DNA of 64,000 nt, from positions 62,001-126,000 of the forward strand of contig JAHBZE010000002.1 in the NCBI GenBank assembly GCA_019635585.1, written 5' to 3'. Numbering within the stretch: the stretch's first letter is position 1; each line of letters opens with the position of its first letter. A model generated the notes under the pieces. The model ran no database searches, was not told the DNA's origin, and saw only the letters and a program-made list of their open reading frames with translations. The translations under genes were made by a program, and so were the position numbers. The DNA comes from Xanthobacteraceae bacterium (GTDB lineage Bacteria; Pseudomonadota; Alphaproteobacteria; Rhizobiales; Xanthobacteraceae). Positions 36,637 through 38,245 of the stretch are shown here, piece after piece.

Positions 36637-37823
36637 TAGCGGTCAACCTCACCGAACACGATGTCGAGCGAGCCCAGGATCGCCGACACGTCCGCGAGCA
36701 TGTAGCCGCGCGAGAGATAATCCATCGCCTGCAGATGCGCGAAGCCGGGCGCGCGGATCTTGCAGCGATACGGTTTGTTGGTGCCGTCCGAGACGAGATA
36801 GACGCCGAACTCGCCCTTCGGCGCTTCGACCGCGGCGTAAACTTCGCCCGCCGGTACGTGAAAGCCTTCGGTATAGAGCTTGAAGTGATGAATGAGCGCT
36901 TCCATCGAGCGCTTCATCTCGCCGCGCTTCGGCGGCACAATCTTCTGGTCGCGCGCCGAGACCGGACCTTTTTCCTTGTCGAGCCGGTCGAGGCACTGCT
37001 TCATGATCCGGATCGACTGGCGCATCTCTTCCATGCGGATGTGATAGCGGTCGTAGCAGTCGCCGTTCTTGCCGATCGGAATATCGAATTCCATGTCGGC
37101 GTAGCATTCGTAGGGTTGGGACTTGCGCAGGTCCCACGCAGCGCCCGAGCCGCGCACCATCACGCCCGAGAAACCCCAGGCCCACGCTTCTTCCAGCGTC
37201 ACGATGCCGATGTCGGCGTTGCGCTGCTTGAAGATGCGGTTCTCGGAAAGCAGGCGGTCGAGATCATCGACCACTTTAAGGAACGGATCGCAGAACGCGC
37301 GGATGTCGTTGACGAGTTGCTGCGGAATATCCTGATGCACGCCGCCGACGCGGAAATAGGCCGCGTGCATGCGCGAGCCGGATGCGCGCTCATAGAAGAT
37401 CATGAGCTTCTCGCGCTCTTCGAAGCCCCAGAGCGGCGGAGTCAGCGCGCCGACGTCCATCGCCTGCGTCGTGACATTAAGGAGATGCGAAAGGATGCGG
37501 CCGATTTCGGAATAGAGCACGCGGATCAGTTGCCCACGGATCGGCACTTCGATGCCGAGGAGCTTCTCTACCGCAAGGCAAAAGGCATGCTCCTGATTCA
37601 TCGGCGCGACGTAATCGAGCCGGTCGAAATACGGGATCGCCTGCAGATAGGTCTTCGCTTCGATCAGCTTCTCGGTGCCGCGATGAAGCAGGCCGATATG
37701 CGGGTCGACGCGCTCGACGATTTCGCCGTCGAGTTCGAGCACGAGACGCAACACACCGTGCGCCGCCGGGTGCTGCGGACCGAAGTTGATCGTGAAATTT
37801 CTGGTCGGCGTCTGTTCGTTCAT
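36636..37823 (-). CDS. nuoD: NADH-quinone oxidoreductase subunit D
   Basis: 49-kDa subunit lining the quinone-binding site. The 395-residue protein starts [18 protein letters not shown], containing the conserved histidine next to the quinone head group, and carries [17 protein letters not shown] and the C-terminal [19 protein letters not shown]. NuoC and NuoD are separate genes here, as in other alphaproteobacteria. It overlaps the thioesterase gene by 4 bases. Confidence 0.98.
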
Positions 37824-38245
37824 GCCGCCGCCTTTGCCGCTTTCGCAGCGACGCGCTCATCGAACTTCGCGCGGTTGATGACAAAGCGCTCATGCGTGCC
37901 GCCGCCGATCTTGTCGACGCCGTCATGACCCGCGACCGTAAACTTCACGCGCTTGCCGTCGACTTCGGTAATCTCGCAATCCACCGTGACGACCATGCCC
38001 GGAGGCGTGGCCGCATCATGCGAGAAGTTCACTTGCGTACCGAGGCTGCCCTCGCCTTCGTCGAGATGCTGCGCGAGTAATTCGGTGCAGCACCACTCGA
38101 ACAGGCCGACCATAAAGCCGGTTGCGAAAACCGAAGGCATGCTGAGAAAGCTTTTCGAGTCCGCGAACAGCGCGGGCACGGTCTGCTTGTCCGTCACTTC
38201 AAAAACGAGGCGGTGTTTCAGTCCGGGCTTCAGCGAGGCTTTCAC
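37820..38245 (-). CDS. FlK-like (fluoroacetyl-CoA thioesterase type) hotdog thioesterase inside the nuo operon
   Basis: 141 residues from a GTG at 38245 that overlaps the nuoC stop (GTGA); its own 3' end overlaps nuoD, so it is fully embedded. It closely resembles the fluoroacetyl-CoA thioesterase FlK: [11 protein letters not shown], G-E-G-S-L-G-T, S-H-x-A-A-T-P-P-G and H-D-G-V-x-x-I-G-x-G-T-H-E-R are all visible. Thr42, Glu50, Gly69, His76 and Arg120 fall at the FlK numbers as I recall them, while FlK's gate Phe36 is Met36. It is predicted to hydrolyse a short acyl-CoA; the substrate is unknown and need not be fluorinated. The alanine/lysine-rich tail is unremarkable. Confidence 0.88.

Follow-up and report, generated by a model that had tools for sequence, protein, structure and literature searches.

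FlK is the self-resistance enzyme of a fluoroacetate producer, Streptomyces cattleya, where it belongs to the fluorinase cluster. In this enzyme T42, E50 and H76 are presumably the catalytic residues, with G69 and R120 as further key residues, while V23, L26, F33 and F36 form what we take to be its fluorine-selective lid. Titles in the Protein Data Bank (PDB) show solved structures of FlK mutants at T42 and F36. Another FlK (WP_011137957.1) is encoded on the haloacetate plasmid pUO1 of Delftia acidovorans, in a mobile cassette with a methyltransferase, a fluoroacetate dehalogenase homologue and crcB, and the same four functions (methyltransferase, FlK, dehalogenase and CrcB) are reported to stand in one cluster in Caballeronia S22 (PMC11812338). 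Here we analysed a stretch of 64,000 nucleotides from a Xanthobacteraceae bacterium (assembly GCA_019635585.1, contig JAHBZE010000002.1, positions 62,001 to 126,000; hereafter the window, whose numbering is used below). It carries a gene predicted to encode a lid-bearing hotdog thioesterase of the FlK family (PF22636), placed between nuoC and nuoD of the respiratory complex I operon.

The thioesterase gene (37820..38245, minus strand) reads from a GTG at 38245 down to 37820 in 141 codons. Seven bases separate this GTG from a GGAGG in the 3' end of nuoC (38253..38257, minus strand), which is the likely ribosome-binding site, and four-base overlaps on the same strand join the gene to both neighbours: GTGA (38242..38245) holds the nuoC stop and the thioesterase start, and ATGA (37820..37823) holds the thioesterase stop and the nuoD start. 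An earlier reading made from the letters alone (the sequence-only reading) had described just such a complete gene, overlapping nuoC with its GTG and nuoD with its 3' end; its coordinates were right, and it named no strand. The ratio of nonsynonymous to synonymous substitution (dN/dS, NG86) was 0.061-0.198 in 15 pairs from six genus members, which supports purifying selection. The gene is more than a chance open reading frame, because it matched the Pfam FlK model at E=2.5e-31, aligned with FlK in the PDB, follows a GGAGG, has this low dN/dS and keeps the same nuoC-flk-nuoD order in relatives; the chance explanation was ruled out.

The Pfam match reached 108.3 bits against a gathering cut-off of 27, and no NCBIfam model matched the protein at E<=1. 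In a phmmer search of PDB chains, residues 2-136 aligned without gaps on residues 2-136 of S. cattleya FlK (3kx8, 3p2q and others) at E 6.6e-39, with 66/136 residues identical. T42, E50, G69, H76 and R120 were the same in both proteins, as were V23, L26 and F33 of the lid; however, FlK has F36 at the gate and sits in a fluorinase cluster, whereas the window protein has M36 and sits in a respiratory operon. The predicted structure is a hotdog fold like that of FlK. The claim of the sequence-only reading that the five key residues fall at identical numbers, with Phe36 replaced by Met, was thus borne out by the gapless alignment, which did not place the catalytic residues elsewhere, and the structure prediction that it had called for gave the FlK-like fold. 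An FlK-type thioesterase is supported by the sequence and key residues of the product as well as by its lid and predicted fold, and its chemistry is very probably FlK-like. A second family member in the same genome (G000:C2:1120730-1121110, L142), adjoining a flavin adenine dinucleotide-binding oxidoreductase gene, shares the Pfam FlK match and T42, E50, G69, H76 and R120. It differs in that the lid segment with F33/F36 is missing, and it is 34.3% identical to the window protein; this paralogue is one of 29 lid-less rows in the residue alignment.

The placement within the nuo operon is not peculiar to this genome. A match at E<=0.001 was found in 30/61 relatives, and of 20 loci retrieved, 12 were flanked by nuoC and nuoD, seven had no nuo gene in their flanks, and one (L007) ended at a contig edge with nuoD present. 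Copies in nuo operons made up 54 of the best 80 of 567 relatives (genome_contigs), including one cut at its contig start (L025). Cultured relatives that share the layout include Rhodoplanes serenus, Hyphomicrobium zavarzinii and Methyloligella halotolerans. Among 199 genomes sampled from the order, 38 had a match at E<=0.001, and nuoD linkage was assessed for 24 of them, namely 22 strong matches (E<=7.1e-65, own genome included) and the copies of G120 and G088. All 22 strong matches lay upstream of nuoD in the same orientation, the matched stretches overlapping by 1 base at one extreme and standing ~0.81 kb apart at the other, and spanned seven families, with nuoC on the opposite side in 10/10 loci checked; the copies of G120 and G088 (E near 1e-43) were not near nuoD. 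The order is rich in nuoD (197/199 genomes), and 177/199 genomes had no strong thioesterase match. In the class, 29/289 genomes had a match at E<=1e-20; outside the order, 29 loci were inspected and had no nuo gene in their short flanks. The tight junctions of the window recur in part: among 72 nuo loci, in which some genomes are duplicated and starts were assigned by script, the four-base overlap with nuoC occurred in 44, that with nuoD in 20, and ten had a gap of >200 bases after nuoC. The nuoC-flk-nuoD order in relatives and the 22/22 linkage rule out a one-off insertion, the outcome that the sequence-only reading had named as fatal to its proposal; the survey found the gene kept. No account of a nuo operon containing a thioesterase gene turned up in a literature search from which most subscription work, the main FlK papers included, was beyond reach, and the word 'thioesterase' is absent from the part of PMC4859585 that was available. 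The FlK family itself is known, and the nuoC-flk-nuoD arrangement was not found described in the literature searched. The observation is real: the enzyme belongs to the FlK family, is conserved, and occupies an operon setting that is both new and stable.

Throughout the nuo copies T42, E50, G69, H76 and R120 were invariant (64/64 rows). Position 36 was Met in 64/64 nuo rows and 42/43 other lid-bearing rows, of which 47 and 26, respectively, were partly gathered with a pattern that includes Met36; without the pattern-gathered rows the counts were 17/17 and 16/17. The single exception among the 43 was Val in Streptomyces sp. BHT-5-2, and of all 137 rows that of S. cattleya alone had Phe36. By these alignments Met36 appears to be the rule of lid-bearing family members and not a lost gate, and loss of function through Met36 was rejected as a general argument. 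The change flagged by the sequence-only reading was confirmed, while the worry it raised is answered. Because the pUO1 cassette and the chromosomal copy G426 also carry Met36, this residue alone is no argument against fluoroacetyl-coenzyme A (CoA) as substrate.

In a quick tree of the 137 rows, the nuo copies formed one side of a branch (support 93 in the SH-like approximate likelihood ratio test, SH-aLRT) with one label change, and betaproteobacterial copies adjoined them. A careful tree of 81 rows, which omits 56 (lid-less rows, two long branches and near-duplicates), gave two label changes: the non-nuo rows L033, L034, L039 and L086 fell inside with weak support, and the 43-row group holding the nuo copies was supported 96/94. 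This pattern may reflect either one insertion with later departure or misplacement of the four rows; in an alignment of ~140 columns, the deep forks are unsure. S. cattleya FlK shared a group with the Streptomyces BHT copy and three alphaproteobacterial copies, all from one other family, and pUO1 FlK stood in a separate lid-bearing group. On plasmid p1 of Streptomyces sp. BHT-5-2 (L139 6528-9353), the FlK-like gene with Val36 is preceded by a gene for an acyl-CoA dehydrogenase and followed by one for a HAD-type hydrolase; these neighbours are only suggestive as a clue to substrate, and Pfam does not separate dehalogenase from phosphatase.

Outside the nuo operons the settings are mixed. On five distinct contigs (L060, L084, L087, L114/L166 and L115/L167) a lid-bearing copy outside nuo follows lpd on the same strand, at a distance of 0 to 2.2 kb; the lpd genes are 68-100% identical to the dihydrolipoyl dehydrogenase of L166, and sucA and sucB precede lpd at one of the five. 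Two Gallionellaceae copies stand between argF and argG, others adjoin amt, rlmM, or a thiolase or acyl-CoA ligase-like gene, and bins named Gallionella and Sideroxydans also contained relatives. With surveyed flanks of ~1.5 to 8 kb, a missing neighbour carries little weight; the common theme is housekeeping and not one pathway. Because relatives elsewhere adjoin other housekeeping genes, residence in a complex I operon characterises the order and not the enzyme.

The pUO1 enzyme is lid-bearing, has M36 and the same key residues and is 43.9% identical to the window protein; it differs in its mobile cassette and its separate tree branch. The dehalogenase homologue of that cluster had a fluoroacetate dehalogenase as best PDB match (E=6.8e-127), and in G426 a methyltransferase gene, 54.7% identical to that of pUO1, directly precedes the FlK gene. 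The window gene lies outside any such fluoroacetate-resistance cassette. In its genome a fluoroacetate dehalogenase homologue (G000:C1:1126480-1127379, L151 1480-2382; phmmer E=3.1e-125 to 3r3u), flanked by purD-like and phosphotransferase-like frames (names assigned by reading), and crcB are present, both far from the window. This pair first looked like a supporting fluoroacetate package, a reading undone by the controls. Dehalogenase homologues at E<=1e-45 occurred in 10/22 genomes with a strong thioesterase match vs 93/177 others (7/22 vs 61/177 at E<=1e-90, by hand count), and CrcB was near-universal in the order (193/199). As the dehalogenase is as common without a nuo copy and CrcB is nearly everywhere, neither gene supports a dedicated fluoroacetate system, and the lack of dehalogenase enrichment weighs against a specific fluoroacetate role. 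Nothing in the window showed similarity to the three pUO1 cassette proteins.

The operon itself runs on the minus strand in the order nuoA, nuoB, nuoC, thioesterase, nuoD, nuoE, nuoF, a TM2-domain gene and nuoG, as assigned with Pfam: nuoA (39414..39800), nuoB (38863..39534, from a mechanical open reading frame start, the true one probably being later), nuoC (Complex1_30kDa, 38242..38853), nuoD (Complex1_49kDa, 36636..37823), nuoE (36034..36636), nuoF (34728..36032), the TM2-domain gene (PF05154, E=1.5e-13; 34260-34718) and nuoG (31937..33997). The TM2-domain gene, between nuoF and nuoG, is another non-complex-I gene within this operon and is also present in L021, a genus member. L021 has ~0.9 kb without a nuo match between nuoD and nuoE (7607-8527), a stretch that the window lacks. 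Additional frames accompany the thioesterase gene in nuo operons of Hyphomicrobiaceae (L056 5516-7335, L012, L054, L081, L091 and L100); in L056 a GFA-domain gene precedes nuoD, and the frame that follows nuoC has no Pfam match.

Our computation established family, fold, residues, operon place and conservation. We favour, with modest confidence, a protective, FlK-like hydrolase with a housekeeping role, whose gene would be translated as part of the complex I message. Its substrate would be a small acyl-CoA with an activated alpha carbon, for instance fluoroacetyl-CoA or an internal compound of similar behaviour. If catalysis follows the FlK pattern, the acyl group would enter a hydrophobic pocket over which V23, L26, F33 and M36 close as a lid, and T42, E50 and H76 would cleave the thioester with assistance from G69 and R120. 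Hydrolysis would free CoA and keep the toxic acyl group from citrate synthase and the tricarboxylic acid (TCA) cycle, and the nuo location may serve steady expression alongside respiratory metabolism. The sequence-only reading is supported in part: its FlK-type thioesterase stands on sequence, residues, lid and predicted fold, with a long-kept nuo place and purifying selection, and a functional link with complex I that goes past operon membership is at most putative.

Why the gene sits in nuo may be explained by steady co-expression, the plain guess, and a frozen accident is a serious rival to it. The enzyme may be real and its place the relic of a single ancient insertion into an operon with good expression, retained since leaving would break the coupling and without any respiratory link. 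We consider this quite plausible, though short of probable: the nuo copies make one label change in the quick tree, relatives' nuo operons carry other unrelated frames such as the Hyphomicrobium GFA-domain genes, and relatives elsewhere have different neighbours. Linkage of all 22 strong matches across seven families speaks against it, and so does the independent lpd placement on five contigs, which gives a hint of a theme of respiration or the TCA cycle, albeit a weak one at 5/43. A complex I assembly factor or accessory subunit would be favoured by nothing but the location of the gene and its overlaps with the two neighbouring nuo genes. That idea is very improbable in view of the full thioesterase residue set and predicted FlK fold, the close relatives outside nuo operons, and the many genomes of the order with nuoD and without a strong match.

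A different question is whether the substrate is an ordinary endogenous short acyl-CoA of the acetyl-, glycolyl- or malonyl-type, hydrolysed to recycle CoA, with fluoroacetyl-CoA incidental to a Met36 gate looser than Phe36. The vertical, housekeeping-like distribution, the nuo, lpd and arg settings, the dehalogenase that is not enriched among holders, the Gallionella and Sideroxydans copies and the restriction of Phe36 to S. cattleya all agree with it. However, the whole lid and the five key residues of the fluorine-selective enzyme are kept, Met36 is also found in the pUO1 fluoroacetate cassette, and no neighbour points to an endogenous substrate, and we regard this alternative as possible but rather doubtful. 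It is equally tentative, and rather unlikely, that the FlK family was at its root a housekeeping guard of acetyl-CoA oxidation, in which lid-bearing Met36 enzymes in central-metabolism operons would clear a routine alpha-activated acyl-CoA and the Phe36 enzyme of S. cattleya would be a late specialisation. If true, the guard would sit in the complex I operon in this order, and some other alphaproteobacteria would keep it by lpd or by genes for 2-oxoglutarate dehydrogenase.

Proteins for a direct kinetic comparison are at hand in the 64 nuo rows, in which Met36 and the key residues do not vary, and in the pUO1 enzyme, which has the same gate residue. To our knowledge, bacteria with the nuo copy do not make fluoroacetate. 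Their vertically kept gene poses the question of what the FlK family protects ordinary cells from.
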